Below are positions 7,742 through 34,944 of a DNA stretch of 50,654 bases, in pieces. This DNA comes from Salegentibacter tibetensis (GTDB taxonomy: Bacteria > Bacteroidota > Bacteroidia > Flavobacteriales > Flavobacteriaceae). The notes under the pieces were generated by a model, which was given only the letters and a program-made list of their open reading frames with translations, had not been told where the DNA came from and made no database searches. Position 1 is the first letter of the stretch, and every line of letters starts with the position of its first letter. The stretch is taken from contig NZ_JAIQZA010000031.1 of NCBI RefSeq assembly GCF_020164485.1, positions 1 through 50,654 of the forward strand. The letters run 5' to 3'. A program made the position numbers and the translations under genes.

Positions 7742-7744
7742 TTT

Positions 7745-9514: not shown

Positions 9515-9516
9515 AA

Positions 9517-10521: not shown

Positions 10522-10559
10522 TAAAAAATAATTTAAGAGGCTGGTAGGGCGGCCGATTT

Positions 10560-11177: not shown

Positions 11178-11181
11178 AAGC

Positions 11182-12045
11182 TTAACTGTGATATTCGTGT
11201 TTTGCTTTTTCAACAAGGTTCTTCAGCAAGTCAATATTCGATGCTAAATCCTTGTCACTTAACCTTACTCTATATTGTTTCCACTGCTTATCATACGACA
11301 AGATATCTAGGTCTGAGCTTTCCAAAAGTTCATCTACTTCCTCGACTCTCTCGTGTTTAATATTCATGATAACCATGGTCTTCCTGGGAACGAAAGTGAC
11401 AAAGTTATTTGCCATATTATTACGCTCAATCCCTATATAGTGCTTATTGTATTTAAGCTTATATTCTTCGGTTATTTCTCCCAATTCTGCTATTATTTCC
11501 TGAGTTAATTTAACCGAAGAGTTTGAAGCCTTTTTCTCCCAGTAAGATTTATCGGTAGGCTCGGAAATTGTATCCTCATCTAACAAATCAAAAGTTACCT
11601 CATCCAGTACTTTGGTGAAGAATAACGAGATATTGTCCTGAAACTTTACTGCTTTTACCTGAATAGCAATTAAAGGTATAAACCCATTAAATAAAGAAAT
11701 TACATTTAGAAATCTACTTGTAATATCCTCAGCAATAATCACAGCACAGTGATTGTATTGCGGATTCTTTTTACGCTCTAAATCCCAGTATTCAATAGTC
11801 CTGATTACATGAGTTTCATCAGTCTTCCCTAATTGGATTTCCACTTCATAGCGCTTCTTATCTTCAGGATCATATAAGATAGTATCTAATCTACCACCTC
11901 CAACCATGATCTTTTCTGTATCTCTAAATTCAAGATCTCCAAGCCCTAACATAGAAGGATCTTCTTCGATCCTGGCTTGCAGCCATTTTTCATTGAATTC
12001 CTGGCTGTTCTTCAGACTAATAATTTCTGGTTTAATATACTTCAT
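11182..12045 (-). CDS. NucS-like PD-(D/E)XK-fold putative nuclease
   Basis: The 287-residue product (from ATG 12045, eight bases after the pglX stop; an in-frame ATG at 12081 lies inside pglX) begins WLQARIEEDPSMLGLGDLEF, the pattern seen at the start of NucS-type endonuclease domains. GGRLDTILYD (Asp54) and YEVEIQLGK (Glu67/Glu69) fit the acidic residues of a PD-(D/E)XK core, but the usual catalytic lysine position is Gln71, so it could be inactive or use a variant site. The C-terminal third, VTFVPRKTMVIMNIK and onward, may be a separate nucleic-acid-binding domain. It follows pglX directly and may be a BREX accessory nuclease. Confidence 0.6.
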   Translation of the reverse strand: MKYIKPEIISLKNSQEFNEKWLQARIEEDPSMLGLGDLEFRDTEKIMVGGGRLDTILYDPEDKKRYEVEIQLGKTDETHVIRTIEYWDLERKKNPQYNHCAVIIAEDITSRFLNVISLFNGFIPLIAIQVKAVKFQDNISLFFTKVLDEVTFDLLDEDTISEPTDKSYWEKKASNSSVKLTQEIIAELGEITEEYKLKYNKHYIGIERNNMANNFVTFVPRKTMVIMNIKHERVEEVDELLESSDLDILSYDKQWKQYRVRLSDKDLASNIDLLKNLVEKAKHEYHS

Positions 12046-12053
12046 GCTTGTTT

Positions 12054-15000
12054 TTAGATTATCGCTTCTGTTTCTATCCAATCAAACTTCTTAATCTTCT
12101 CCTTGGCCTTCTTATCGTTTAAGCCTTTTACTTCTTGAATGGCTTTCCCAAACTTGTTATAATTTACAAGCACCCCGTCATCCAGGTCTATAGAGATACG
12201 CGCTGTGGCCAGGGGATATAGGATCTCTCGTTCATATTCCTGTAATTCTAATAGAACACTTCTTAACCTGTCTTTTTCTTTTCCTGCTTTGGTTTGCTCT
12301 ATAGAGCTTCCTGTCTCAATTACATGATCCAAGTGTTCAATACGAGCTTTGATTTTCTCCCTATATTCCAGGAGGTAAGCGTTAAGAATATTATTTAAGG
12401 TATCCGGAGTATAACGGTGCATATAGATAAGCACATTGAAAGAACCTTTTGGTGATGAGAACATCCAATAAATAGGACGCTTCTTATAACGCTTGATATG
12501 GTCCTTATAAAAGTCTTTCACGAAAAACTTACGGATGTCTTTACCTAAGGAGTCTTCTACAAAAGCCAGGTTCTTTTCAAAGTTGGCAGCACCAAAAGTC
12601 ACTTTTAAGAACTCATAGAAACGATTAACAATATCGTCTTCAAACCACTCATCATCTAGTATTGGGATGATGTTATCATCATCTGGAAGGAAGGACAACT
12701 CATCTTGAGATTTCTCAATTTTAGTTAAAAAATCTTCTAGGCTTTCACCTTGATTGGCGAGTATTAAGCCTTCTTTATCTAATGAGTAACGACCAAACAT
12801 ACAACCTACTGCATAACTCATAAACTGCGTAAAGACTTCTTTAGCATCAAAGACCAAATCACCATTTATGATGTCTGTTTCTTCTTTTAAGATGGTAATA
12901 TCCTCTAAAGGTACCTCTGGTGTTAATTCATCCTGTAATCCATAGATTTCAATGAATTGCCTGTTGAGTTCTTCTTCATTTTTATGGAGTTGTAAGAATT
13001 TATTTTTCCAATACTGCCTAAATAAATCATAGGTCTCTTCCAGGTCTTGCCCTTTAATACGAATGAGTTCGTTTTGCTTAAAATCCCAAGAATGATCTCG
13101 TGTACTCCATTCGTTTTTACTTATCTCAACACATAAAAACACATGTTTATTTATCTCTTCATAATTAACTTTAACGAAAGGAATCTTGCCAACTGGCCCC
13201 TGATTGTAATCTAATGTAGGGGATAAGACATCCAAATATTTTTGTGCAACTTTTGAATTTAATAGCCCCAACAAGTAATTAGCATCATGAAAATCATCAA
13301 AGAATACAGCTGGTCCCTTCGAATCAAACAAATATCCTTGTGGTGAAAGTCTGCATGAAAAAAGTCCCGATGACAACGCACTCCAATTAATTGATTCTCG
13401 GAAATAAAAATCATAACTTACAATACGTCCACCAACTTGTTTTTTAGAGTCAGATGCTATACAATTTCTAATGTTTTCTCCATCATTCCACCAATCTACT
13501 ACGTAATAAAGATTCCCACTCCATCTTCTGAAATCTCCACCTTTATTGTATGGAAACCATTTCGCTTCACTAACTTTCGCTTCATCGGTATTAGCCTTTT
13601 GTTTACCAATTTTATTAAATGGAACCTCGTGACAAAATCTTAAAAATTGCTGATTATCTGTTGTTGAGAGTCCAGATTTAGGATGAAAATTATCTTTAAT
13701 CTTTTCCTTTTCAAATTTTTCTATTAAATTATTTGATAACCAATAACCAATTGGACTTCCAGGGATTTTTCCTAAATCTTTTTGACTAGCAGTGTAAAAC
13801 CAGCCACACTTGCGATTTTGAATGGCTTCATGGGTTTTGGTTCTTTTCAATTCAGAAGTTCCATCATCTACCAAACGGATATAACTTCCTTTTTCTTCAT
13901 TGATAGTATTCCAAAAGGTAAAAGAGGCATTTTGTACCACCTCACCACCAATTTCAGGAAACGTTCTAGGACCTAAATGTAATAGAGTATCAAAAAAAGT
14001 TTCTTTAATTAATGTCTCACGTAATTTTTCATAACTACTTAAAAACATCCAACTGTGCTGGTTAATCATCCCCAAAAACCCTTTAGGGTGTAATGCTTTT
14101 AAGCCTGCTTCCATAAAACAAGCCATTAAATCGGCCTTACTGACTGGATATTTACTTTTCACAAAAGTAGAAAGCTTTGAATTCATTGCTCCCCCTCCCA
14201 TATAAGGAGGATTATCTACTACACAATGATACTTCCTGGCTAGATTGATCAATTGAGTATCTGCAGTTTTCAGTCTAACCAATAAATCCTGTAGAAAAAG
14301 ATCTGGATTTTTCTTTAATTGCCTTTCAATTTCCTCCAACCCCTGGATAAGGAACTTTAAAGAACTTTCTGGCTGGATAAGAGATCCAAAGTTTGTGGCG
14401 TTCTCTATCAAATGAAGGTCGCGCTGGAATTCTTTGGATTTATCCATATATACCTTTGGCAGTACCTTAAGCAATTCTTCCTTGGTAAAGCTTACATCTT
14501 CAAATTGAAGGATATTTGGTTTCAGGTCTTTTCTAAATATTCTTCTATGATATGCCCTGGCTTTCATCATGAGCGCAAAACCGGCTAATTGAGCTGCTCG
14601 TTCATCGATCTCAAAACCAAACAGATTTTTCTGAATAATCAACTGAGGGATTTCACTTGGATTATAGCCTTCTTCCTCATAAATTTTAGACAGCAATTCA
14701 AAACCATAAACCAAAATATGACCACTCCCACACGCCTGGTCTAATAATGTAATTTCTTCAACAGATTCTATTTTTAGATAATCTTCAGCTTCAACCGATG
14801 GAGATTCAATAAAATACTCCATATGCTCTCTTAGCCTGGAATTTGGATTGTTTTGCAACCAAAGCTTCCCAATTGTATTCTGCACCATATATTCAACGAT
14901 CCACCTGGGAGTAAATAACTGAGTTGCCGCTGGAATATCTTCTTTCTTCACCTTAGACTTAGAAGCAAATACCTCATCTTTCTTTTCCGAAATATAAAAC

Positions 15001-15605
15001 TGATATAACCAGCCTATGACCTCAACCTCCTCACAATCTTCCTTGAACATTCCTTCCATAAACTCATAGATAATGGAAAACTCACTGGTGAGATCATCAG
15101 GTAAAAGAAGTTCTGTATAATCATCTATCTTTTCAAATAAAAACGGAAAGATGGAATGTAACTGGTTACAAGCACCAATCAACAATTCCTTATACACCTC
15201 ATTTTGAGCATTGGAACTCGGTATTTTCCCGTCAAGAAGGTCATAAATTCGCTCTTTGTTTACAGGAAGCTCGTCGGGAATTTGTCCCTGCCTGGCATCT
15301 TCCAGAATTTCGGGTAGCGTATATCCATCCTTTGGAGTAATTATTTTTATCCCTGTAGGTTGATATTCATTTACGTCCATAAATCTCAGCGCCATTAACC
15401 TGTTAAACCAGGTATAAGCCACTTTATCTATAACCTGTTCTTTAGAAGAACCTTTAATAGCATCTTTCAAGCTGCTTAAGGCCATAGCTTTTTCCCTTAA
15501 TTCAGCAGAATCGGTAGTCAATACCAGTTCCATTCTGGAACCTACTTGTTGTAATAATTTTCTTCTGGCTTCCTGAGCAAATCTTTTGAGTCGGTTGGTA
15601 TTCAT
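12054..15605 (-). CDS. pglX: PglX, N6-adenine DNA methyltransferase of BREX
   Basis: PglX methylates adenine at the non-palindromic BREX site in host DNA, marking self. The 1183-residue product is of normal length for type 1 PglX. The SAM-binding motif I is DQACGSGHIL at 289-298 and the catalytic motif IV is NPPY at 465-468, the order found in N6-adenine methylases. The N-terminal 280 residues and the long C-terminal part (target recognition and partner contacts) match the family plan. Its ATG overlaps the brxC stop (TAATG at 15605), so it is coupled to brxC. No frameshift or phase-variation tract was noticed in the gene. Confidence 0.95.
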   Translation of the reverse strand: MNTNRLKRFAQEARRKLLQQVGSRMELVLTTDSAELREKAMALSSLKDAIKGSSKEQVIDKVAYTWFNRLMALRFMDVNEYQPTGIKIITPKDGYTLPEILEDARQGQIPDELPVNKERIYDLLDGKIPSSNAQNEVYKELLIGACNQLHSIFPFLFEKIDDYTELLLPDDLTSEFSIIYEFMEGMFKEDCEEVEVIGWLYQFYISEKKDEVFASKSKVKKEDIPAATQLFTPRWIVEYMVQNTIGKLWLQNNPNSRLREHMEYFIESPSVEAEDYLKIESVEEITLLDQACGSGHILVYGFELLSKIYEEEGYNPSEIPQLIIQKNLFGFEIDERAAQLAGFALMMKARAYHRRIFRKDLKPNILQFEDVSFTKEELLKVLPKVYMDKSKEFQRDLHLIENATNFGSLIQPESSLKFLIQGLEEIERQLKKNPDLFLQDLLVRLKTADTQLINLARKYHCVVDNPPYMGGGAMNSKLSTFVKSKYPVSKADLMACFMEAGLKALHPKGFLGMINQHSWMFLSSYEKLRETLIKETFFDTLLHLGPRTFPEIGGEVVQNASFTFWNTINEEKGSYIRLVDDGTSELKRTKTHEAIQNRKCGWFYTASQKDLGKIPGSPIGYWLSNNLIEKFEKEKIKDNFHPKSGLSTTDNQQFLRFCHEVPFNKIGKQKANTDEAKVSEAKWFPYNKGGDFRRWSGNLYYVVDWWNDGENIRNCIASDSKKQVGGRIVSYDFYFRESINWSALSSGLFSCRLSPQGYLFDSKGPAVFFDDFHDANYLLGLLNSKVAQKYLDVLSPTLDYNQGPVGKIPFVKVNYEEINKHVFLCVEISKNEWSTRDHSWDFKQNELIRIKGQDLEETYDLFRQYWKNKFLQLHKNEEELNRQFIEIYGLQDELTPEVPLEDITILKEETDIINGDLVFDAKEVFTQFMSYAVGCMFGRYSLDKEGLILANQGESLEDFLTKIEKSQDELSFLPDDDNIIPILDDEWFEDDIVNRFYEFLKVTFGAANFEKNLAFVEDSLGKDIRKFFVKDFYKDHIKRYKKRPIYWMFSSPKGSFNVLIYMHRYTPDTLNNILNAYLLEYREKIKARIEHLDHVIETGSSIEQTKAGKEKDRLRSVLLELQEYEREILYPLATARISIDLDDGVLVNYNKFGKAIQEVKGLNDKKAKEKIKKFDWIETEAII

Positions 15606-18600
15606 TAAAGCGAGATTCTTTTATTGTCTTTAATATGTTCTTTTAAGCATTTACGAAGGGTTTCTAGATAATCATCAACATCTTCTTCGGTCTTCAGTTC
15701 AGTTTTGTCAAATTGAACTCGGATATTAGATCGTTTAATGTACTGTGCCGGAGGTTCATTTGCTCCACCGCTATCTGGGTCATCTTCAGTGACCAGTTTC
15801 AACATTTGGTTAAGCTGTTGCTCAAAATGATAATTTTCCGCTCGATCTTTAATTTGCCTTATCTGTGAAATATATCTTTCTCTATTGATATTTTCTTTTG
15901 CATTTTTGAAAGGTGCTAATACCTGATCTTTTTCTTCACTACTAAGCTGAGAAAATTCATCTTTAGATTTAAAATCGGAAATCAACCGATCAATTTTACT
16001 GTTAGCCTTTGTTCTTTCAGTATTAAAAGTTTCCTTAAGCTTTTCCAGCAACCGATCCTTTACTTCTTTACCTTCCTTAATTACATTTCCCTGATAAGGT
16101 TTGGAGTTATTATCTATCAGGTTATTTAAATAATCTAATTCTTCACCCTCTACATATAGAAAATTGGAAGTATCTCCTTTTACCAGTTGTCTTATGTCAT
16201 CATAGATCTTTTTTTGATCTCCATTCATAAATCTTTTTATAGGCACTAAAAGATCTTCTTTAGTATCTAAAAGCTCGTCTTCAATTTGGTTTAAATCATT
16301 TAAAAAATAATTGTAATCCTTGCGAACCCAAACCTTCAATTTCTCTGAAAAGGAATTTAAACTGGCTAAAAAAGGATACTGTCTTTCCTGCACCTGAAGC
16401 TGACTAACTTCCGATAACATAGACTGTAGTTTCTCCTTAAAAGCCTTGGCAACTTCCTTGGCTTCATTAACAGAACAGGTTTCATCAAAAGCATCGTGAT
16501 AAGCTTGCTTTAAAGCCTTAACCTGTTTTGGATCTACCTCTTCCTGAGGTTCCAATAAGGTATTGCTATGGTAAGAACTATTGATTAGTGCATTAACAAC
16601 ATCCTGATCTTCAAGAATATTAGAATCCTGCTTCAATTCAATTTTCCCTCTACGATAAAGTTTTGCAACTACCGTCCAGATGGCATTTGGATACCAGCCA
16701 TAAGGTTTCTTAGTAAATTCATCTTTCAAATCTGAAAGTGCCGTACGTTCCGATCTTTTTTTCCTCCTGTTTATCAGGCTAAAAATTTGATTTTCGGCTT
16801 CAGACATTGTAGAATCATCTGCACCAAAAAGATCATCTTGCGGGTTCTTTACCACGCTTCTAATGGTCTCCTCACTAAACTGAATATTCCCAAGCATTTT
16901 CAGGTTAGAGTACACATTCTTCACCAAATCCTGAAAAGCTTTTACTACTCTGGTCTTCCCATCAGAAGTTACACTCATTTCGTGCTTGTTCCCATTCAGG
17001 TATACTGTAGATTCTGACAAGAGTTTATCGGCAAGTTCTTTCAAATTAGATTTCCTGCGAACATTTAACTGACTTTTCTCAGCCAGAATCCTGCTCACTT
17101 CAGGCCGATTAGAGGTGGAACGATTTTGCTTCACATACTTATCGGTCTTCAGATACATTTTCAAGTCCTTGATAAAATTAGAATCTGAAGCCAAAACCAT
17201 TTTCATCCCGGTACTTCCCATAGTTTGGGATTGCAGATAAGTCGTGTTTGTATATTCCGGATAGTTTTCTGTTATTAATTCTATTTCCAGTTCCTTTTCA
17301 CGCCCTAGAATTGAACCATCTATTTTACTGGTAAAGTCATAATCCTGTCTATTCTCCAGGTATTTTATCTTATTATCCCTGATGATCTCATCAAATAAAA
17401 TTTCTCTAAGCAGCTGAGTTACCTGCGAATCATCAACCTCTGTATTTTTTATTTCCTGTTCAACATCCTTTTCATCATCGGTTAGAAACTCATAAACCTC
17501 TCCGTTTCTTTGGATATAACTTTGATTTTCGAGTTGATTTAAAGCTATTTCTATATCCTTCTCATGCTCTTTTAGATCAACATCCATATTGTCCAGCATT
17601 AGCACCGATAAATTTCTCTTGGTAGTTTTGAAGTTATTGAAGTACTTCACCAGGAAGAGTGCTTTTAAAACCTTAATCGCAAATGGATTTTCGAGGTTTT
17701 TTTCTGCAAGATTAATAGAGCTTTGCATTTCACCTCTTAGCTCATTCTTGATCCCGCTGTACATTTTATCAAAGCTCACCAGGGTACGATCATCTCCATT
17801 TTCGATTTGTTGGATCACTTGTTGAAAAACTCCTAACATAGAACGCTCACCAACAGAAGAATGCCTACCCTGAAATGCATTGTGAGAAGACAGGGCACGT
17901 CTACATTGTTGGAACAAATCAAATTGATAGGGAATAAATGGATACTTATTAGCAAAATCTCCTTCTCCTTTAAATCCTTTAAACTGAACTCCAGATTCAG
18001 AAAATGATAGTAAAGTATCTAAATGAGCATTCTCTTTCTTATATAATGCGATAAGTTGATCTTTAGCATCATCTTTCTTCTTTAATAAACGTTTTTCAAT
18101 TACTTCATCTACGTTAGCAGAAGTAAGAGGAACCTTAAGTTTAAACCTTGCCTGAATACGGGAAAAGTCATTTTCTTGGGCTTTGGTCATATCTCCAATT
18201 ACCTTTTCCATATCTTCCTGAGAGGTAACTAAAATCCACGACCTCCCTTTTGTCTTGGTAGCCAATGATTCCGCAATAGTCTGAAGGTTTAGCATCAATT
18301 TAGTGTTGTCACTGATATATTGACCTACTTCATCAACAAAGAAATTCAACTTGAAGCCAGCAGGTTTGGTATTGATGTATTCATTCACCCGATAACTCAA
18401 GTCTTCGATGGACTGCTTTTGCTTATCCTCCATTTCATCCAGGATATCTTCATATTTTGAAGCATCCTTACCGAATATCTTTCCTAACACTTCTTCAAGA
18501 TCATCGGTTACCATTGGATCAAAATAATCAGTACGAGCTTCTTCCCAGGACTTACCGTGTAACTTCTCAAATCTGGATTTAAAATCGGAATATTTTTTCT

Positions 18601-19108
18601 GTTTATCCAACCACATCTCAAATTCCGCTACGTGCGGCTGAAATCCATAGTACCCTAGATGATCGAAGAAGACTTTGTAAAAAACTGAAAGTATAGCATT
18701 TTCATCTGCCTTTGATGTAATTTGAGCTTGTTGGTCAATGTTGAACAGAATTGCTTCAGAAGGTATCCGAGTAGCGGATAATACATCCCCTTTTAGCATT
18801 TCGTCGTTTTCAATCTTTTCAGCAAACAACTCTCCACATTTATAACCTTCCACTTCCTTGTTTTCTAATACATAAGAAAGAATTTTAAGTAAGTGAGACT
18901 TACCCGATCCAAAAAAACCAGAGATCCAAACCCCGTTTACACCATTGTAATTATTATAAGCCTGGAAAAGATCTCGAATTTTCTTGGAGATTTCATCGGT
19001 GATTACATATTCTGCAACTTCGGTTGAAATATTATCTCTGTCATCAGCTTTAATAACCGTTTCAATTGGTCGGTCTACAGGCTTAGCAAAGTATTCTTTT
19101 ATTGTCAT
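15605..19108 (-). CDS. brxC: BrxC, large P-loop ATPase of BREX
   Basis: BrxC is the large AAA+/P-loop protein essential for BREX activity. The 1167-residue product has Walker A GFFGSGKS at 64-71 and Walker B FFVDEVGQY near 256-264, followed by LVTSQEDMEKV as a sensor-like segment. The C-terminal half is lysine/glutamate-rich and predicted helical, with coiled-coil-like stretches near residues 860-1090, as in other BrxC/PglY proteins. It starts two bases after the brxB stop and overlaps the pglX start by one base. Confidence 0.95.
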   Translation of the reverse strand: MTIKEYFAKPVDRPIETVIKADDRDNISTEVAEYVITDEISKKIRDLFQAYNNYNGVNGVWISGFFGSGKSHLLKILSYVLENKEVEGYKCGELFAEKIENDEMLKGDVLSATRIPSEAILFNIDQQAQITSKADENAILSVFYKVFFDHLGYYGFQPHVAEFEMWLDKQKKYSDFKSRFEKLHGKSWEEARTDYFDPMVTDDLEEVLGKIFGKDASKYEDILDEMEDKQKQSIEDLSYRVNEYINTKPAGFKLNFFVDEVGQYISDNTKLMLNLQTIAESLATKTKGRSWILVTSQEDMEKVIGDMTKAQENDFSRIQARFKLKVPLTSANVDEVIEKRLLKKKDDAKDQLIALYKKENAHLDTLLSFSESGVQFKGFKGEGDFANKYPFIPYQFDLFQQCRRALSSHNAFQGRHSSVGERSMLGVFQQVIQQIENGDDRTLVSFDKMYSGIKNELRGEMQSSINLAEKNLENPFAIKVLKALFLVKYFNNFKTTKRNLSVLMLDNMDVDLKEHEKDIEIALNQLENQSYIQRNGEVYEFLTDDEKDVEQEIKNTEVDDSQVTQLLREILFDEIIRDNKIKYLENRQDYDFTSKIDGSILGREKELEIELITENYPEYTNTTYLQSQTMGSTGMKMVLASDSNFIKDLKMYLKTDKYVKQNRSTSNRPEVSRILAEKSQLNVRRKSNLKELADKLLSESTVYLNGNKHEMSVTSDGKTRVVKAFQDLVKNVYSNLKMLGNIQFSEETIRSVVKNPQDDLFGADDSTMSEAENQIFSLINRRKKRSERTALSDLKDEFTKKPYGWYPNAIWTVVAKLYRRGKIELKQDSNILEDQDVVNALINSSYHSNTLLEPQEEVDPKQVKALKQAYHDAFDETCSVNEAKEVAKAFKEKLQSMLSEVSQLQVQERQYPFLASLNSFSEKLKVWVRKDYNYFLNDLNQIEDELLDTKEDLLVPIKRFMNGDQKKIYDDIRQLVKGDTSNFLYVEGEELDYLNNLIDNNSKPYQGNVIKEGKEVKDRLLEKLKETFNTERTKANSKIDRLISDFKSKDEFSQLSSEEKDQVLAPFKNAKENINRERYISQIRQIKDRAENYHFEQQLNQMLKLVTEDDPDSGGANEPPAQYIKRSNIRVQFDKTELKTEEDVDDYLETLRKCLKEHIKDNKRISL

Positions 19109-26211: not shown

Positions 26212-28395
26212 TTAATCACTGGACGCTTCCTCTTTATATTCTCTCTTTACTTCGGATACAATATCCTGAAGCTCTATTTCATTGCTCTGCCTCCTTCTGG
26301 CCTTTAGCGAGCAATGTTGGATCACTTTTATGATCCCCTCTCCTGATAATTTGTATTTCTCAGCTATCTCTTTCAGATCTACATTTTGATATAAATATGT
26401 TGATTTGGATAAACCATTTTCCCACAATTGGTAGCGTTCGTCCTTTCCTGGCAATGGAAAGTGTATAATTGACTCAAACCTTCTCATAAAAGCTTCATCA
26501 ATATTTTTTTTAAGTTTCGATTCCAGTATCACTAAGCCAGTAAAGTCTTCCATTCTCTGCAATAGATATGAAACCTGCTGGTTGGAATAACGGTCATAGG
26601 AGTCTTTGATGCTGGTTCTTTTTCCAAAAAGCGCATCTGCCTCATCAAAAAACAATATCCATTCTTCGTTTTCAGCGCGGTCAAAGACCTGAGCGAGATT
26701 TTTCTCTGTTTCGCCAATATATTTGGAAACTATCTGTGACAAATCGATCCGATAAACACCCCTGCCTGTCATTTTTCCCAATAGAGCGGCTGTAAGTGTC
26801 TTGCCCGTGCCGGAAGGTCCATAGAATAATGTCCAGTACCCGCGTTTTACCACCCTTTCCTTTTCCCGTGGATCCACGAGTACATAGTTGTGTTTAATCC
26901 AACTTTCAATTTCTTTCAGTTGTTCTTCCGCTTTTGGTGTAAGTACTAAATCTGACCATTCTAGTTTGGTAATCAATAGTTTGGCACGGAATTCTGGGTT
27001 GAAGTCCTGTAACTTGTGAGAAAATTTTAAGATGATAAATTCTGCCGGCCGCACTGGTGCCATACCAATTTTTACGTTCATTCTGCCTTCCAGAATATCT
27101 TGCGCCGTCATGGTTTCGCCTAAACCTATCTTTACAAAAAATGCCTGCTCTGGTTTGGAACCTGCTAGTCCACCCTCTCTCCAAACAGTTGTAAGGTAAT
27201 TTTGAATCATTGCTTTTACCCTTACCCAGGTAGTAGCGTTATTAGGCTCAAACACCACAAACTCCGTCCCTTTTTTAACCGACTCCCCTACTGTGATATA
27301 TAATCTGCGAACAGGAACATATCTCCATTCATTATCATTACCAGCCAGCGTTCTGGCTCCCCATACGAGTATACCTCTTCCTGAAAAAGACCTGATCACA
27401 TTAATGGACTTACCGGTTGATGCGTTCACATTAAGTTCGGCCTGCTGCTCGTTTGTTACCATTACCGTCGGTGCAGAGACAGAATTCAGGCTTACATTTG
27501 CTGGGGCTTTCCATACACCTCTGTTTTCGTCTACTTTGGCAAATACACCAGCAATGGCCCCGGAAGCAGGCAGGGTCAGGTATTTCTTTTTTATTTCAGT
27601 TTCAAACCTTCGGAACACCATAGGATCGTCATTTTCTACTTCTGAAAGTGTACGCCCATTGTAAAGGGGAAGGGTATCCGTAATATTATGAGTGTGGGTG
27701 ATGATGGAGTTCTTATCCACAAAGTAATTTAGCGTAGTTTTTAATGTAGGATAGTAAGCTGCTCCGTATTCGAGATAATTCATCCCAAGTTCACCTCTGT
27801 AATCAGTGATTGCAGTTGGATTCCCGTTATGAAACACATCACATATTGTGAACCTGTCCTGTAGCTTATTGCACATTTCCAATGCAACTTTGGCTACGGA
27901 GCCGTACTCCACTTGGTCCCTTAGGCTAATGGCATCGGGAAATACGTAAAGGGTAGGTTCATCTACTTTTTCAGTTGCGGCAATGCCTCCAATTAGCCCT
28001 TCCATCGGTTCTGTTCTGCCGACTTCAATCACTCCCGAATCATAATCACCTACCGAAACGATGTAGCAAGGGCCTCCGCCATTATTGAAATAGAGTTCAA
28101 GACTATGAAACAGCTTGAAGATGCTGGGATTGGGATCATCAACAGTATAAGTTCTGGAAGTAAGTTCTCCATCGGTATACTCATCATTCAGCAAGAGTCT
28201 AAACTGCTGGAGTGGCGCTCCACCAAACTTATCTTTGTATTCTAGTAAAGAGGTAATTCTGGTAGCAGAATTGAGCAATGTTGCATCTTCGGTATAACCG
28301 ATAAAGGCCGGAATTGCTGTTTCTACACTGGCTATTGATTCGGGCAAAGTAGATTTTTCCTGAATATAGACCCCGGGCCTTTTTAGTGACGACAT
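26212..28395 (-). CDS. Contractile-injection tail sheath fused to an AAA+ ATPase
   Basis: This 727-residue ORF joins two proteins that are normally separate. Residues 1-463 are a phage-tail-like sheath: MSSLKRPGVYIQEKSTLPES at the start, AWG-type GRGILVWGARTLAGNDNEWR near 339-358 and the terminal PAEFIILKFSHKLQ where sheaths usually end. From residue 464 the sequence is the C-terminal half of the injection-system AAA+ ATPase (Afp15-like), with Walker A GPSGTGKT at 526-533, Walker B FFDEADALFG at 582-591 and arginine-finger RRF near 638-640. The sensor-1 stretch reads VILESKLKKNID where ATNxKxNID would be usual, so a key Asn appears to be Lys. No tube, baseplate or spike genes flank it. It looks like an in-frame deletion product of an eCIS cluster. 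Confidence 0.85.
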   Translation of the reverse strand: MSSLKRPGVYIQEKSTLPESIASVETAIPAFIGYTEDATLLNSATRITSLLEYKDKFGGAPLQQFRLLLNDEYTDGELTSRTYTVDDPNPSIFKLFHSLELYFNNGGGPCYIVSVGDYDSGVIEVGRTEPMEGLIGGIAATEKVDEPTLYVFPDAISLRDQVEYGSVAKVALEMCNKLQDRFTICDVFHNGNPTAITDYRGELGMNYLEYGAAYYPTLKTTLNYFVDKNSIITHTHNITDTLPLYNGRTLSEVENDDPMVFRRFETEIKKKYLTLPASGAIAGVFAKVDENRGVWKAPANVSLNSVSAPTVMVTNEQQAELNVNASTGKSINVIRSFSGRGILVWGARTLAGNDNEWRYVPVRRLYITVGESVKKGTEFVVFEPNNATTWVRVKAMIQNYLTTVWREGGLAGSKPEQAFFVKIGLGETMTAQDILEGRMNVKIGMAPVRPAEFIILKFSHKLQDFNPEFRAKLLITKLEWSDLVLTPKAEEQLKEIESWIKHNYVLVDPREKERVVKRGYWTLFYGPSGTGKTLTAALLGKMTGRGVYRIDLSQIVSKYIGETEKNLAQVFDRAENEEWILFFDEADALFGKRTSIKDSYDRYSNQQVSYLLQRMEDFTGLVILESKLKKNIDEAFMRRFESIIHFPLPGKDERYQLWENGLSKSTYLYQNVDLKEIAEKYKLSGEGIIKVIQHCSLKARRRQSNEIELQDIVSEVKREYKEEASSD

Positions 28396-29079: not shown

Positions 29080-29325
29080 ATGTACGAAATCACTATTCAT
29101 ACTAGTAAGATCAAGGTTGATAAAGCACTGGAAAAAATTCAAGATGTTTTAAAAAAAATTGATAAAGAAGAAAGAACTTTAAATTCCTTTGAAGGAGAAA
29201 TGTCCACTTACATATACCTTGAAATGACGGAAAAAGAGAAGGCTGAAAATATTGTTCAAGAATTAAAAAAGATAAAAGAAATTGAAAATGTTTACTTAAA
29301 ACAAAAAGGTTCACTCCCCTCATAA
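29080..29325 (+). CDS. Small inhibitor/propeptide-fold-like protein, 81 aa
   Basis: The sequence predicts a beta-alpha-beta-beta-alpha-beta order: strand YEITIHTSK, helix VDKALEKIQDVLKKI, strands around RTLNSFEGEMSTYIYLEM, helix KEKAENIVQELKKI, strand ENVYLKQKG. This is the ferredoxin-like plan shared by peptidase-inhibitor I9 propeptides of subtilisins and by ACT-like domains. It lies 61 bases upstream of a subtilisin gene, which favours a separate propeptide, chaperone or inhibitor. The fold call is from pattern only. Its last codons fall in the first copy of an 18-bp direct repeat. Confidence 0.5.
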   Translation: MYEITIHTSKIKVDKALEKIQDVLKKIDKEERTLNSFEGEMSTYIYLEMTEKEKAENIVQELKKIKEIENVYLKQKGSLPS

Positions 29326-29346
29326 AATAAAAAGGTTCACTCCCCT
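29303..29346 (+). repeat. 18-bp exact direct repeat across the end of the 81-aa gene
   Basis: AAAAAGGTTCACTCCCCT occurs at 29303-29320 and again at 29329-29346. The first copy encodes the C-terminal KGSLP, and the second is untranslated. It looks like a recent short tandem duplication at the 3' end of the gene. Confidence 0.9.
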
Positions 29347-29386
29347 TATACTTTGCATTTAATATTTAATTTAAATCATATATATT

Positions 29387-31144
29387 ATGGCAAAAAAGAA
29401 AAATCCACCGGGGCAAGATGCTTCGAAGGAGACTATTCCTAAAGGGGAATTGATCGTGATTGCTAAGCAGGATGCTGGAATGCGCTCTACACCATCTGGC
29501 ATACGTTCTACTCAAGGAGCGGAAACAAAATCTCTTCAAAAACTGCTTAAGGACAAAAAAATTTCTCTTACACCTCTCTTTGGTAAGAGTGAGGAAGCGT
29601 TAATAGGAGAAATGGAAGAGGACTCTGCGCCTGATTCCGCAGAACTACATCAGCACCTTTTTTATTACGTTGAAGCTCCAGAAGAAGATTTAGAAGAAAT
29701 TAAGGATGATCTTCTTAAGGATGAACTCATTGATGGAGCATATATCAAACCATTTGGTGAGCCGCCAACCGCACCAGAAATGGATGAAATGGAAAGCACG
29801 GAAGTCCTGGAACCGGAAGAAGGCACTCCCACCACACCCCCAGATTTCACTTCTCGTCAGGGATATTTAAATCCAGCACCGGAGGGTATAGATGCGAGGT
29901 ATGCATGGGGCCTTAGTGGTGGTAAAGGTTCTAATGTAAGAATTATAGATTGTGAATGGGGATGGCGATTTAATCATATCGATCTGCTTCAAAATCGGGG
30001 CGGTGTATTATCTGGAACAAATTCCACGAACTTAAGGAGTGAAAACCATGGAACTGCTGTAATTGGAGAATACAGTGGTGATCACAACCACTTCGGAATT
30101 TCAGGAATTTGCCCGCAAGCCTGGGCAGCAGCGGTATCTTTTTCTCAACCAACCGCTTTGGCAATTAGAAATGCCGCTAACCGGTTACGCGCCGGGGATA
30201 TTATGCTTTTGGAAATACACAGAGCGGGTCCAAAAAATAATTTTCAGGGAAGAGATGATCAGGACGGATATATTGCAATTGAATGGTGGCCAGATGATTA
30301 TGAAGCTATAAGGTATGCGGTTAATAAAGGAATAATTGTAGTTTCCGCTGCAGGCAATGGAGGTGAGAACCTGGATGGATCAATTTATAATAATAAGCCA
30401 AATGGTTTTCCATCCTGGTGGAAGAATCCCTTTAAAAGAGATCCTTTAGATTCAGGTAGTATTTTAGTAGGTGCAGGAGCACCACCACCTAATACCCATG
30501 GTCGAAATCACGGCGCTGACCGTTCCAGACTTGGATTTTCTAATTATGGATCAGCTATTGATGCGCAAGGCTGGGGAAGAGAAGTGACCACTACCGGCTA
30601 CGGTGGATTGTGGCGAGATCCGGTTGATCCAAACAACCGAGATAGATGGTTTACTGATACTTTTAGCGGAACTTCAAGCGCTTCTCCTATTGTAGTTGGG
30701 GCTCTTGGTTGCGTTCAGGGTTATTTAAAAGCCAGAGGAAGAATACCTTTAACTCCGTCCAGAGCCCGAAATCTTTTACGTAGCACTGGATCGCCTCAGC
30801 AAAGTACTTCTGGAAGACCAAGGTCCCAGCGAATAGGTAACAGACCCAATTTAAGACAAATGATTGCAGCTGTTAATCCAACAAATTCCTGGGTAGGAGT
30901 TCAGTTCACTGGGACAATTAATGCTCGACAACAGCGACGTTGGTTCACCTTTAGGTGGCCCGCCCACTGGCACGTAGTATGGACTGTAATGCCCACAACC
31001 CCACGTTCTGGAGCACCTCAAGTGGAATGGAAAGTCCAGGTAGAAAGGGCTAGCGATGAACACATTACATACTGGATAACAGTTAAAAACCTTACAGCTT
31101 TCCCGGTACGTATCGAAGGAAGATATGCCGTACTAGGCTGGTAA
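29387..31144 (+). CDS. Cytoplasmic subtilisin-like serine protease (S8) with a C-terminal beta domain
   Basis: The 585-residue product has a subtilase core at about 160-470 with Asp188 (VRIIDCEWG), His221 (ENHGTAV), oxyanion Asn324 (AAGNGG) and Ser430 (SGTSSASP), so the triad is complete. No signal peptide is present (MAKKKNPPGQDAS), so it should act inside the cell unless exported otherwise. Residues 20-125 look like a built-in N-terminal prodomain (GELIVIAKQ ... DGAYIKP), followed by an acidic, proline-rich linker (126-152). Residues 502-585 form a separate domain rich in strands and Trp, nearly duplicated by the next gene. It is the centre of a four-gene cassette ended by a terminator at 31756. 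Confidence 0.85.
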   Translation: MAKKKNPPGQDASKETIPKGELIVIAKQDAGMRSTPSGIRSTQGAETKSLQKLLKDKKISLTPLFGKSEEALIGEMEEDSAPDSAELHQHLFYYVEAPEEDLEEIKDDLLKDELIDGAYIKPFGEPPTAPEMDEMESTEVLEPEEGTPTTPPDFTSRQGYLNPAPEGIDARYAWGLSGGKGSNVRIIDCEWGWRFNHIDLLQNRGGVLSGTNSTNLRSENHGTAVIGEYSGDHNHFGISGICPQAWAAAVSFSQPTALAIRNAANRLRAGDIMLLEIHRAGPKNNFQGRDDQDGYIAIEWWPDDYEAIRYAVNKGIIVVSAAGNGGENLDGSIYNNKPNGFPSWWKNPFKRDPLDSGSILVGAGAPPPNTHGRNHGADRSRLGFSNYGSAIDAQGWGREVTTTGYGGLWRDPVDPNNRDRWFTDTFSGTSSASPIVVGALGCVQGYLKARGRIPLTPSRARNLLRSTGSPQQSTSGRPRSQRIGNRPNLRQMIAAVNPTNSWVGVQFTGTINARQQRRWFTFRWPAHWHVVWTVMPTTPRSGAPQVEWKVQVERASDEHITYWITVKNLTAFPVRIEGRYAVLGW

Positions 31145-31178
31145 CTAAACCAATTATATAATCTTAAAAATAATAGCA

Positions 31179-31433
31179 ATGAGAGTAGGAGTTCAATTCA
31201 CAGGCACAGTTCGTGCAAACAGTAGTAGAAGGTGGTTCACTCATTCCTGGAATCCCGCCAAACACGTAATCTGGACGGTAGTGCCAACTTCGCCAAGGGT
31301 CGGTGCCCCTCAAATAGAATGGGAAGTTCAAGTAGAAAGAGCTAGCAGTAGCAAAGTCACTTATTTTATTTCAATTAAAAATTTAACAGGAAGGGATGTA
31401 AATATTGAAGCCCGATATGCATTCTTAAATTAA
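31179..31433 (+). CDS. Free-standing copy of the protease C-terminal domain, 84 aa
   Basis: The whole protein aligns with residues 502-585 of the upstream subtilisin at roughly 60 percent identity by eye. Shared blocks include GVQFTGT, RRWFT, GAPQ, VQVERAS and KNLT. It predicts as a small beta-sandwich. It follows the protease by 34 bases and precedes the DAG-motif gene by 12. A stand-alone duplicate could act as a decoy, competitor or docking partner for whatever the protease domain binds. The domain itself I do not recognise. Confidence 0.7.
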   Translation: MRVGVQFTGTVRANSSRRWFTHSWNPAKHVIWTVVPTSPRVGAPQIEWEVQVERASSSKVTYFISIKNLTGRDVNIEARYAFLN

Positions 31434-31445
31434 AATAGTACCATT

Positions 31446-31742
31446 ATGGAAATAAATATAAATATAAAGGACAAGACCTTAGTGCAAAATGAGAAAAAAG
31501 GTTCAGAACAGGAATCTTTGTCAGATGCGGGTGCATCTGCTTTTTCGATAAATAATCAGGAAGAAAGCATCTCATCAGTGGATGATAATGATGCTGGTCC
31601 TCCTTCTCAGGAATTAGTTATGGAAATTGAGAGTTATAAAACTCAGCAGAAAGAATCAGGTTTTCAAAAGAATGATTACAACAGTAACTTTAATGAAGAG
31701 GATTTTTCAGACGCAGGGGGACCCCCGGAATTTGATAATTAA
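31446..31742 (+). CDS. Acidic peptide with three DAG motifs, 98 aa
   Basis: A low-complexity, Glu/Asp/Ser/Asn-rich product with three related motifs: SDAGASAF (about residues 26-33), NDAGPPSQ (about 48-55) and SDAGGPPEF near the C-terminus. It has no cysteine, no signal peptide and no predicted globular core. It is the last gene before a strong terminator and follows the protease genes closely, so it may be the substrate or a processed precursor. No known precursor family is recognised. Confidence 0.55.
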   Translation: MEININIKDKTLVQNEKKGSEQESLSDAGASAFSINNQEESISSVDDNDAGPPSQELVMEIESYKTQQKESGFQKNDYNSNFNEEDFSDAGGPPEFDN

Positions 31743-31755
31743 TTTACAGGCTTAG

Positions 31756-31794
31756 AAAAGATCCTTTGTAATCATTAATCAAAGGATCTTTTTT
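31756..31794 (+). terminator. Rho-independent terminator of the protease cassette
   Basis: A 13-bp stem, AAAAGATCCTTTG (31756-31768) and its complement CAAAGGATCTTTT (from 31780), separated by 11 bases and followed by a T run. It lies 14 bases past the DAG-peptide stop and closes the cassette. Confidence 0.9.
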
Positions 31795-32781: not shown

Positions 32782-33654
32782 TTAATATCCATATCCTATT
32801 CCGGTATCCCTTACTATTTTTACAGCTCCTTTTATAAGCTCTTTGGCTATTTTGGTGGACAGGTTGTTGCTTATTTGTACCGTTTTATTTAAAACTTGCA
32901 GGTCTTTTGGTGCTTCCATAAGCTTTCTTAAACCCTGGTTTTGCGAGATTGTTGGGATTAACCTATTCCCACTCATTGATCGGTCCACTTCACTTGCTTT
33001 AAGATTCACTCCTTTGTATTCCACCCGGAACCCTTGCAATTGATTGGCTTTATTGATTGTGGGAATCACTTCCACCTTCTGAGCTTTCATTTTGCTTATA
33101 TATTCATCCAGGGATTTTGGCCTCGACTGAAGTACCCTGTCATGTATATTTTTGATCTCCTGTCTGAGGCCCTTTAATTCATTAAGTCTTTCCTGCTGTA
33201 CTTCCCGAACCCTGGTAAGTCCTAATTCCTTTGCAACATTATCGGCAGCGATCTGGCTTCGTTTTCCGATAAAGCTGTCATTGTAGGCTTTGCCATCAAA
33301 ACCAATCCTGTTGGTATAGATATGAACATGGGTATGGGCTTTATCCCGGTGAACAAAACCTATGGATTGATTGTTTTGTAGGTTCATTTCCTTTAAAAAC
33401 TTTTTAGCGAGATCTTCCAGTTCTTTTTTGCTTAGATCCTTTCCGTCCTCAATAGTTGGGCTTACAATAAAGCTTAAGGTGTTATTAATACAGCGTTCAT
33501 TTTGCGACTGGATAATCCTAAACTCTTCGGCTATCTCCGCTGGAGTATCTCCGGCCACGTGTTCCCTTAGCACAACCTCAGCTTCTTTTTCCTGGTTCCA
33601 GCCATAGGATATGGAAACCCTTGTGCCGGATACGGCGTGTCCTTTCCCAATCAT
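32782..33654 (-). CDS. Relaxase/mobilization nuclease
   Basis: The relaxase nicks oriT and leads the DNA strand into the recipient. The 290-residue product has the histidine triad AHTHVHIYTNRIG near residues 106-118 (the HxHxH-type metal site) and an N-terminal SISYGW tyrosine region suitable for the catalytic Tyr. The length suits a compact Bacteroidota MobP/MobV-like relaxase with little C-terminal extension. It overlaps mobC by four bases. Confidence 0.88.
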   Translation of the reverse strand: MIGKGHAVSGTRVSISYGWNQEKEAEVVLREHVAGDTPAEIAEEFRIIQSQNERCINNTLSFIVSPTIEDGKDLSKKELEDLAKKFLKEMNLQNNQSIGFVHRDKAHTHVHIYTNRIGFDGKAYNDSFIGKRSQIAADNVAKELGLTRVREVQQERLNELKGLRQEIKNIHDRVLQSRPKSLDEYISKMKAQKVEVIPTINKANQLQGFRVEYKGVNLKASEVDRSMSGNRLIPTISQNQGLRKLMEAPKDLQVLNKTVQISNNLSTKIAKELIKGAVKIVRDTGIGYGY

Positions 33655-33947
33655 TTTTTAAAGTTTTTTAAATGTGTCCTGATTTCTTTAGCCAGGTCTT
33701 CCACCTCTCTAGCCAGCTTTGGATCCCGCTTTCTAAACATATTCCCAATGCGGGTAAAATTGTTCTTGTATTGTACCAGCATCTGGTAAGTCTCTAATTG
33801 ATCCGGAGTGATCCGTTCTACAATATTTTTATCAAAGGCCGTTGCTCGGATATACTCTGAAAGGGAAATTCCTGCCCTGGCCGCTCTTCTTTGGAGTAGC
33901 TTTTTCTCGTAGATCGAGCATCGAACCTGGATGTATTCCCTTTTCAT
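33651..33947 (-). CDS. mobC: MobC-like relaxosome protein
   Basis: Starting at ATG 33947 the product is 98 residues: a ribbon-helix-helix-like N-terminus (REYIQVRCSIYEKKLLQRRA then GISLSEYIRATAF) and a helical C-terminus (NNFTRIGNMFRKRD), the MobC family plan. MobC melts or bends oriT so that the relaxase can nick. The frame stays open upstream to 34052, but that stretch is the oriT palindrome, so the shorter start is preferred. Confidence 0.85.
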   Translation of the reverse strand: MKREYIQVRCSIYEKKLLQRRAARAGISLSEYIRATAFDKNIVERITPDQLETYQMLVQYKNNFTRIGNMFRKRDPKLAREVEDLAKEIRTHLKNFKK

Positions 33948-33960
33948 TTTTTTTCTTTTT

Positions 33961-34021
33961 AAAACCTTTGCAACCACCGGGCGCAAAGCAAGATTGTCAT
34001 TACAATGACACATCTTGCTTT
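33961..34021. other. oriT: Origin of transfer (oriT) with near-perfect palindrome
   Basis: AAAGCAAGAT (33985-33994) pairs with ATCTTGCTTT (34012-34021), and inside it TGTCATT (33995-34001) pairs with AATGACA (34004-34010), leaving only two central bases and one bulged C. Beside it is the GC-rich segment CAACCACCGGGCGC, a plausible nic region. It lies 14 to 74 bases upstream of mobC, the standard place for oriT. The exact nick site is not determined. Confidence 0.75.
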
Positions 34022-34059
34022 TCCCTTTCAACTGAAATTCTCCGATAGGCATTTACCAA

Positions 34060-34944
34060 TTACCAACGCATCATTATTTTAAAGTCAAGGGATTTTTCAG
34101 CTTTCAATTTTTCATTTAGATCTACATAGCCAGAATAAGAATCACTGCAATCGGTTATATTATCAAACTGGTTTAAAAGCGAACCGGCTGCTTTTTTACC
34201 TGCTTGGTCATTGTCCAGATAAATCAGGACCTTTTCATATTTAGGGATGAAGATTTTTATCCTTTCCAAAAAAGCCAGGGAATTTAAAATGATGCAGTCG
34301 GAGTTTTGTACTAAGTCTTCATCGATGGTAGCCAGGGAAAGAAAATCAAACATCCCTTCTGTGATAAGTAGTTGTCTGGATCCTCTTTCAAAAAATGAAA
34401 AGGTCTTAGGGCTACTGGAGGTTTTAAAGTATTTATTTCTAAGTTCCCAGCCTCTTTTATAATTTTCAAGGCCAAGTGCAAAAAACCGTTTTCCTTTACA
34501 GCGATACCAAACCTGCCTGCAGTATTTTCTACCAATCTCATAAGGTATATTCCGTGAGTTCAGATAATCAATTAATGCTTTCAGGTGAATAATTTGAACG
34601 TCCAGGATACTAATTTCTGGTTCCTTAGTAAGATGTTCAATATCCGGCGGGCTAAAAGAGAGAGATCCCATATCGCTTTTTAAAAATTCCAGGGTTTCCC
34701 TTACAGACCAGGAATTTATAAGCATAATTAGATCTATGGTATTCCCCCCTATTCCCAATCCGAAGTCAAACCATAAGTTTTTAATTAAAGAGACGCTAAA
34801 AGAGGCTTGGGTTTCTGACCGCAGGGGACTCAGAAACCAAGCTTCTTTTTCCGATGTTCTGGTGGGAAAGTGCCCTAATTTTGCAAGCGTTTTTACGATG
34901 CAAATATTACGGGCACTTTTACACGATAAGTTATTTAAGTCCAT
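34060..34944 (-). CDS. DNA primase with CHC2-type N-terminus and Toprim domain
   Basis: The 294-residue product starts with a shortened CHC2 zinc-finger/primase region (SETQASFSVS ... NLWFDFGLGIGGNTIDLIML), followed by a Toprim domain with the catalytic Glu in LLITEGMFDFLSL and the acidic metal pair in LIYLDNDQAGKKA. It lacks a helicase part, which the neighbouring SF3-type gene could supply. Together they would replicate the element or prime the transferred strand. Confidence 0.82.
   Translation of the reverse strand: MDLNNLSCKSARNICIVKTLAKLGHFPTRTSEKEAWFLSPLRSETQASFSVSLIKNLWFDFGLGIGGNTIDLIMLINSWSVRETLEFLKSDMGSLSFSPPDIEHLTKEPEISILDVQIIHLKALIDYLNSRNIPYEIGRKYCRQVWYRCKGKRFFALGLENYKRGWELRNKYFKTSSSPKTFSFFERGSRQLLITEGMFDFLSLATIDEDLVQNSDCIILNSLAFLERIKIFIPKYEKVLIYLDNDQAGKKAAGSLLNQFDNITDCSDSYSGYVDLNEKLKAEKSLDFKIMMRW

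Follow-up and report, generated by a model that had tools for sequence, protein, structure and literature searches.

A prodomain, a protease domain and a C-terminal jelly roll follow one another in Tk-SP, a subtilase of Thermococcus kodakarensis (PDB 3afg, 9ues), whose layout is described in an excerpt of PMC3599501. PPC domains are likewise found at the C-terminus of unrelated protease families, and in Myxococcus xanthus a PPC-containing fragment of the metalloprotease FibA is a dominant spore-cuticula protein, according to an excerpt of PMC3236237. Among subtilisin propeptides of the I9 type, the prodomain of pernisine inhibits its cognate protease in trans (PMC10580911). IetAS has a subtilase near an AAA ATPase. 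Cellulosomes are built on cohesin-dockerin scaffolds, in which domain-bearing enzymes are combined with a multivalent scaffold protein.

The locus of Salegentibacter tibetensis described here shares the domain order of Tk-SP, but identity to Tk-SP is 15%, the protease has no signal-like start, the cassette adds each end domain as a free protein as well as a small acidic protein (the DAG protein), and the subtilase is replaceable. The C-terminal domain, hereafter d84, gave no Pfam match at E 0.1, PPC (PF04151) included, nor did two further d84s and a pair of distant relatives at E 1; unlike the FibA fragment, free d84 is encoded by a separate gene and is not a cleavage product, and the enzymes concerned lack signal-like starts. 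In contrast to I9-type propeptides, the 81-aa protein of the cassette had no Pfam I9 match, with weak sub-cut-off matches to other Pfam families, and its relative at locus L019 had none at 0.01; it is also a second, free prodomain, encoded upstream of a protease that has its own. The cohesin-dockerin scaffold is a working analogy only, in that a shared domain on enzymes is combined with a multivalent scaffold; the DAG protein is small and disorder-like by composition, and its binding is putative. Identity with IetAS was rejected, as the protease matched no PADLOC family, IetS included, at E 0.01. The sheath-AAA gene next to it does not belong to the conserved cassette. No description of such a cassette was found among the open-access full texts listed in literature searches, in agreement with the sequence-only reading, which knew of no system with this composition.

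Gene content of the locus

The window, the whole analysed stretch of 50,654 nucleotides, contains all four ORFs of the proposed protease cassette on one strand (Table 1), and the same genes co-occur elsewhere. A closing terminator had also been proposed, and RNA folding gave a hairpin of 15 pairs whose 3' arm and end are rich in T, with -16.9 kcal/mol and a z of -5.3 against 200 shuffles; it is absent from a simple terminator scan, which accepts loops of 3-8, its loop being 11. For every gene measured in six species pairs dN was below dS, the 81-aa gene being covered in three of the six and dS being saturated for one S8 pair. Given the recurrence of the small genes and a dN lower than dS, chance ORFs were rejected, and it is thus confirmed that the gene set exceeds chance.

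Table 1. Features of the cassette at 29080..31794 of the window.
Feature	Position	Strand	Evidence
81-aa gene: prodomain-like N-terminal domain of the protease as a free copy	29080..29325	+	family profile against S8 N-domain
585-aa S8 subtilase: N-domain ~18-126, catalytic domain, d84 ~502-583	29387..31144	+	Pfam, residue conservation
d84 domain fused to the protease	30887..31144	+	identity to free copy, tree
Free d84 protein, 84 aa, predicted six-strand jelly roll	31179..31433	+	
DAG protein, 98 aa, acidic	31446..31742	+	relatives in operon, composition, motif count
Terminator-like hairpin at operon end	31754..31794	+	RNA fold

The protease matched Pfam PF00082 (S8) with an E of 1.4e-12 and 47.9 bits against a curated cut-off of 21.8. 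D188, H221, N324 and S430 were conserved without exception in 21 of 21 aligned sequences, among them the protease of the window, and from their motifs D188, H221 and S430 are read as the probable catalytic triad and N324 as the oxyanion Asn. The start of the protein is not strongly hydrophobic (0.37 on the N-terminal scale used). Over its length, the protease is 55% identical to a protein from Haloferax mediterranei.

The 81-aa protein, first seen as inhibitor- or propeptide-like, is a relative of the prodomain: the free-prodomain profile (A6) aligned to the profile of the cognate S8 N-domain (A8) with an hhalign probability of 97.7 and an E of 2.2e-12, and the A6 HMM matched the S8 N-domain with an i-E of 0.01 or better in 24 of the 24 scanned S8 loci having one. 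A structure-by-sequence search with the prodomain returned weak ACT-domain-like matches only. Subtilase versions of the cassette often encode their own prodomain a second time, as such a free protein, and no prodomain-like protein was present at the eight non-S8 loci scanned. Nine of 13 free prodomains measured have no signal-like start. In counting prodomains, L018 and L031 (contig starts) were set aside; L139 was outside the scan for free prodomains, and the one of L138 was recognised by eye. The four read as signal-bearing have an N-terminal hydrophobicity of 2.06-3.17, three from Chloroflexota resembling lipoproteins by reading and a cyanobacterial one having a signal-like N-terminus.

The free 84-aa protein is 62% identical to protease residues 502-583 and is, as had been noticed, a free copy of the C-terminal domain. 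Each of the 28 genomes or records had exactly two d84 copies (in two of these, among the candidates listed). In a tree without the near copies L022 and L038, 19 of the 24 S8-fused d84s, that of the window among them, form one supported clade (95/92). For the most part, fused d84s group apart from free ones in this tree, a pattern suggestive of distinct roles that are maintained. The structure model of d84 is a predicted PPC-like jelly roll, with a Foldseek match to Tk-SP among the matches listed; sequence searches found no solved structure for d84 or its distant relative. No relative of d84 came up in two pattern scans of IMG/VR and the best phage match of the protease was 32% identical, and carriage by phages was therefore rejected.

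The DAG protein of the window has a net charge of -15, three DAG sites and a short strand-like N-terminus. As a family, the DAG proteins are small, acidic and disorder-like in composition, with repeated [DN][AG]GxP sites, and they evolve faster than the neighbouring genes. At least two strict motifs occur in 26 of 32 DAG proteins as compared to 0 of 1324 other ORFs, a control with some circularity, since most of these proteins had been recognised by motif together with position. Scans of Pfam, NCBIfam and PADLOC gave no model over the cut-off for any of the three small protein families.

Distribution and exchange of the enzyme

The gene set is found again in distant phyla, of both bacteria and archaea. 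Since the genes co-occur in other genomes, they were not taken as unrelated neighbours, and the lack of co-occurrence that the sequence-only reading had itself named as refuting it was not seen. At 36 loci the enzyme, here called the payload, was a cassette-type S8 protease at 26, another S8 protease at one, an M64 protein at two, an astacin at three, an HExxE protein lacking a Pfam match at one and a beta-propeller of the Vps10/BNR type at two, with one unread at a contig end. Outside the 36 are G1280, a fragment at a contig end, and G955/L122, where a divergent trypsin-like protein has a weak d84 (E 1.3e-5) and no free d84 was found. Independent events are fewer than 36 because close relatives are counted (L016/L038, L019/L020/L022 and three Haloferax), and cassette frequencies are lower bounds, since all genome searches scored a limited number of candidates and one of them used two short patterns. 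The 29 of 36 payloads measured over their first 45 residues had an N-terminal hydrophobicity of 1.55 or less and no signal-like start, the start having been moved inward for L016, L026, L032, L034 and L037.

Free d84 was found in 35 of 35 testable loci, and 34 of 35 had a relative of DAG within the same operon, L121 (contig end) being left out of both counts and frames at L017, L023, L097 and L120 being examined by eye for DAG. A DAG protein accompanies every testable payload class. It had been suggested that DAG is the substrate of the protease, an idea now rejected, as DAG persists when the enzyme is swapped for a metalloprotease or a propeller. Of the earlier interpretation, a self-contained cassette of protease and regulator thus stands, while a DAG substrate and phage sensing are not supported.

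Possible functions of the cassette

We tentatively read the locus, with somewhat less than even confidence, as a cassette for assembly or display that moves horizontally and whose enzyme can be exchanged. In favour are the constant pair of d84 copies, the varied payloads with DAG beside each testable class, the separation of fused from free d84, the jelly-roll model with its Tk-SP match and the low N-terminal hydrophobicity of the payloads; the FibA fragment in the Myxococcus spore cuticula is a precedent. The DAG repeats would dock onto d84, and because of this docking DAG could join enzyme-bound and free d84 in one assembly, off the normal Sec route. Free d84 might form a spacer, a cap or the bulk of the assembly, for which the cell surface, the matrix, a released particle and the cytoplasm are possible destinations. 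By analogy with known propeptide biochemistry, with pernisine as a precedent, the free prodomain may act in trans and keep the subtilase inactive until the place or the moment is right. A more far-reaching version, which we place on the unlikely side, is a previously undescribed payload-independent enzyme-assembly system common to bacteria and archaea, where the C-terminal jelly roll makes an enzyme leaderless cargo, the free jelly roll and the multivalent, disordered DAG build a Sec-independent assembly, and the free prodomain is a safety for subtilase cargo.

Alternatively, the leaderless payload could leave through a contractile injection particle or lysis and harm other cells, with d84 and DAG loading it or binding the target and the free prodomain giving producer immunity, which we consider unlikely. 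The lack of a signal-like start on the 29 payloads fits this, as do the lipoprotein-like and signal-like prodomains, suited to protection outside the cytoplasm. In the window, as in a congener, the cassette is arranged head-to-head with a tail-sheath gene, and in Actinomycetospora a sheath gene lies ~25 kb away; the gene in the window is a lone sheath-AAA fusion outside the conserved cassette. Sheath genes were found in 7 of 14 cassette-bearing Actinomycetia as compared to 6 of 72 controls (leaving out the Acidimicrobiaceae genome G317, which has no sheath), but genome size confounds this enrichment, with a size-stratified p of 0.036 and, among genomes above 7 Mb, 3 of 9 against 4 of 11. Furthermore, in two sets of cassette genomes or records a sheath gene over the cut-off was present in just 12 of 28 and 4 of 8, mostly on other contigs and with G1280 outside the counts, and the profile also matched 3 of 14 well-known control genomes. 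An obligate eCIS cargo was rejected because a sheath gene over the cut-off is missing from many genomes with the cassette and the enrichment is weaker when genome size is taken into account. No delivery gene was common beside the cassettes, among the components listed, and no prodomain-like protein is present at the eight non-S8 loci scanned.

Regulated proteolysis inside the cell, by a cytoplasmic enzyme that is checked by the prodomain, positioned by d84 and DAG and acts on the cell's own proteins under stress, is less probable still. It would agree with the missing signal-like starts on payloads and on nine of the 13 free prodomains, but astacin, M64 and Vps10/BNR propeller families are mostly extracellular enzymes, the propeller is no known protease, and four loci have signal-like prodomains.

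We find it improbable that DAG is a precursor whose repeats are excised by the protease and exported as signals. Its repeated motif, small size, place in the operon and fast change would suit such peptide maturation, and 5 of 27 loci have genes for ABC-type ATPases nearby, although this family is common; DAG is however kept with M64 (L118), astacin or the non-protease propeller, and no tailoring enzyme recurred in the neighbour scan (best 25 of 163 Pfam families).

An equally low probability is given to anti-phage defence, in which infection would free the protease from its inhibitor and cell growth would stop. The window adjoins a BREX system, IetA models are the best PADLOC matches (3.9e-31) to the AAA portion of the sheath fusion next to the cassette, and a protease with an inhibitor suits a trigger. 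Against this stand the missing IetS match, a propeller payload with no obvious toxic role, and the neighbourhoods: among 136 neighbour proteins from 28 other loci, chosen by a crude length and GC-frame score, no PADLOC model matched more than three (best 25 of 47 families), and the phage sensing proposed earlier was dropped. A defence island as a rule was likewise rejected, since neighbour matches were scattered, with at most four per Pfam family (best 25 of 163). Finally, an ordinary subtilase that its C-terminal domain stabilises, with unconnected duplicates as small genes, as the Tk-SP layout might suggest, is very improbable given that free d84 and DAG accompany exchanged enzymes across phyla at nearly all testable loci.

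To our knowledge, few gene sets hold a fixed core of small proteins while swapping the enzyme among unrelated families, and few move as a unit between bacteria and archaea. The cassette looks like an undescribed mode of mounting or packaging enzymes, and Haloferax mediterranei ATCC 33500, a cultured and genetically tractable archaeon that has it on a plasmid (NZ_CP039140.1, 11648-14350), offers a test host. If d84 and DAG pair by docking, they would constitute a compact natural way of mounting enzymes without a Sec signal, and a ready protein tag and partner for laboratory use.

Gene content of the cassette

The four open reading frames (ORFs) proposed in the sequence-only reading as a protease cassette were borne out at their positions, all on the plus strand (see table). 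The second encodes an S8 subtilase in which the triad, read there as complete, and the oxyanion residues are invariant in all 21 aligned sequences, and the third, the 84-aa domain d84, is indeed a free copy of the protease C-terminal domain, with which it shares 62% identity. The terminator placed at the cassette end agrees with a stable hairpin. Neither d84 nor the acidic DAG protein, named for its repeated [DN][AG]GxP sites, had any match in Pfam, NCBIfam or PADLOC. For the 81-aa protein these libraries gave weak matches below cut-off, none convincing, among them a marginal PADLOC match (E 0.0025) covering part of one model. A 17-base direct repeat seen by eye (29303-29319 and 29329-29345) spans the end of the 81-aa gene.

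Features of the cassette, its surroundings in the window, and the Haloferax DAG proteins (window positions unless a locus, L, is given)
Feature	Position	Strand	Remark
BREX-type genes	1761-19108	-	BrxL, PglZ, Eco57I-type methylase, BrxC; a 2OG-Fe(II) oxygenase lies inside the cluster
Protein with ADP-ribosyltransferase and ADP-ribose glycohydrolase domains	7745-9514		inside the BREX cluster
Sheath-AAA fusion	26212-28395	-	727-aa ORF in one frame; Pfam
81-aa ORF, prodomain-like	29080-29325	+	ORF, 81 aa
S8 subtilase ORF	29387-31144	+	Pfam S8
Free d84	31179-31433	+	ORF, 84 aa
DAG ORF	31446-31742	+	ORF
Hairpin closing the cassette	31754-31794	+	fold -16.9 kcal/mol, z -5.3
Relaxase, NikA-like and Toprim/primase-like genes	32782-34944	-	
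Haloferax DAG protein	L008 13709-14350		
Haloferax DAG protein	L027 8268-8915		
Haloferax DAG protein	L032 8266-8865		

Recurrence of d84 and the DAG protein

A tblastn search of plasmids found, on pHME505 of Haloferax mediterranei, a protease 55% identical over its full length adjoining d84 (64%). Behind them lies a 213-aa ORF with repeated DAG sites, of which the incomplete gene table gives the 50-aa end only. Scanning one genome per species (84,980 species) with two patterns gave 26 further d84 loci, distributed over Bacteroidota, Chloroflexota, Actinomycetota, Pseudomonadota, Cyanobacteriota, Acidobacteriota and two archaeal lineages. In whole-genome samples, HMM searches identified d84 in 3/296, 2/251, 3/194, 6/249, 2/194 and 2/194 genomes and a single-sequence search in 1/295, a frequency of about 1% with each search's central genome counted in.

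In total, 36 loci were usable, including the window and H. mediterranei. Free d84 was present in all 35 testable loci and a DAG protein in 34, L023 being the one in which none was found; the neighbourhood search thus recovered elsewhere the co-occurrence expected of a self-contained system, and we regard composition and conservation as established. Among the matches listed, exactly two d84 copies per genome or record, both on one contig, were observed in 28 of 28; G1566 has a third, distant match, and three genomes (G1173, G1280 and G955) have a single match each, two of these at contig ends.

The 32 DAG proteins measured are 68-215 aa long and acidic (net charge -4 to -26), with 70-88% disorder-promoting residues and mostly an alternating, strand-like N-terminal stretch (MRIxIE...). 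The best-formed repeat reads [DN][AG]GxPPxWLxxAI; at least two strict motifs occur in 26 of the 32, and one or none in six. DAG evolves faster than its neighbours, yet dN stays under dS in each of the six species pairs. The three Haloferax proteins share an extra conserved C-terminal region of ~50 aa, missing from the other aligned DAG proteins.

An exchangeable enzyme

The enzyme carrying the fused, C-terminal d84, here called the payload, is the window-type subtilase in 26 of the 36 loci. It is replaced by another subtilase in L139 (which reads as a different lineage), by Peptidase_M64 in two loci (L023 and L118), by an astacin in three (L039, L120 and L121), by a beta-propeller with Sortilin-Vps10/BNR matches in two (L096 and L097), and by a HEVVE-bearing protein without a Pfam match in L040; L021 is unread at a contig end. 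L122, a trypsin-like protein of a haloarchaeon with a tail weakly resembling d84, may add a more remote example. Since the enzyme is exchanged between loci, an exchange established here, d84 and DAG are what stays constant. It is chiefly this that speaks against the earlier suggestion that DAG is a substrate of the protease, and for a role independent of the payload. The L039 astacin (7155-8267) matches NCBIfam NF045530, a T4SS effector by name, at E 2.2e-80, below the model cut-off; this is no more than a family resemblance.

The free prodomain

The 81-aa protein, first described as inhibitor- or propeptide-like, proved homologous to the protease N-domain (hhalign probability 97.7, E 2.2e-12), and this homology is likewise established. 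Its relatives form a family of small proteins directly upstream of the protease, with the consensus end ...EAAYxKPxDxLP. The family HMM matched the N-domain in all 24 scanned S8 loci having one, and revealed one further free copy, in L119. Of the 24 loci with this subtilase that could be tested, 15 have a free prodomain (L138 included), and the same HMM found none in the eight non-S8 loci scanned. Both ends of the protease exist as free genes too. In three Chloroflexota and one cyanobacterium, the free prodomain starts with a hydrophobic, signal-like stretch (Kyte-Doolittle 2.06-3.17); in the Chloroflexota we read by eye, not by tool, a putative lipobox-like cysteine. None of the 29 payload starts measured is signal-like (at most 1.55). 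On a Paenibacillus plasmid (L010), the annotation divides a related subtilase, with no d84 in the alignment, into two overlapping genes (5576-6028 and 5983-7074), one for the prodomain-like part and the other for the S8 catalytic domain.

Evolution and genomic neighborhood

In the d84 tree, where columns are few and support is rough, one supported clade (95/92) takes in 19 of the 24 d84 copies fused to S8, drawn from seven phyla; free copies mostly stand apart from fused ones, but the two kinds are intermixed in Zobellia/Pricia, in Haloferax and at the astacin loci. The nearest relative of the window's fused d84 is the fused copy of a genome from the cyanobacterial class (81% identical), which suggests horizontal movement. 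An 83-aa free-standing d84-like protein (L140 3269-3520, minus strand; E 2.5e-4), encoded in a cassette-bearing genome, is distant in sequence, hinting at a wider d84 family.

Over 27 loci, the most widely shared neighbors were an ABC-type ATPase family (five loci) and a dehydrogenase family (four); the remaining components listed were common to close relatives only. In the window, the cassette neighbors BREX genes, a gene that joins a contractile tail sheath to an AAA domain, and mobilization genes; from the last, the region is possibly mobilizable. A congener, G012, retains a decayed cassette (contig 11, L003 1-2016). Relative to the window, two deletions took the prodomain gene, most of the protease and free d84, leaving parts of the protease end and of DAG, with a stretch matching DAG residues 11-98 at 62.5% identity.

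The AAA part of the sheath fusion has IetA models as its best PADLOC matches, and no further contractile injection system (eCIS) gene was recognized among 20 window proteins scanned with Pfam. G012 has in the same place a plain 466-aa sheath gene without AAA (L125 17270-18670). A sheath profile scored above cut-off in 12 of 28 cassette genomes or records, a count that becomes 14 at E 0.001, and in four of eight later ones. Within Actinomycetia, sheaths occurred in 7/14 genomes with the cassette versus 6/72 without (p 0.036, size-stratified permutation), whereas above 7 Mb the counts were 3/9 and 4/11. The association is a lead only.

Proposed mechanism and novelty

The d84 domain is predicted to be a probable jelly roll. 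The jelly roll of Tk-SP binds Ca2+, which is needed for full stability of the enzyme (excerpts of PMC3599501), and PPC-type domains can turn structural, as in the C-terminal PPC-bearing FibA piece that is a dominant cuticula protein (excerpts of PMC3236237). We propose that the DAG repeats would bind d84, that free and fused d84 would join into one assembly, and that the free prodomain would restrain the subtilase; inhibition in trans of a protease by its own prodomain is a known case (PMC10580911).

The initial remark that no described system of this composition was known held in searches of open-access full texts, whose listings showed no paper on such a cassette, with most subscription papers and all preprints outside the search; the portions seen of two eCIS-toxin papers do not name an S8 cassette (PMC8213781, PMC11297309). 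The parts belong to known folds and families (S8, M64, astacin and the probable jelly roll). To our knowledge, no known system matches a constant d84 pair and DAG with an exchangeable enzyme. The cassette is therefore rated new as a system, not in its parts, and its mechanism is a proposal in which d84 and DAG would serve whichever enzyme is carried.
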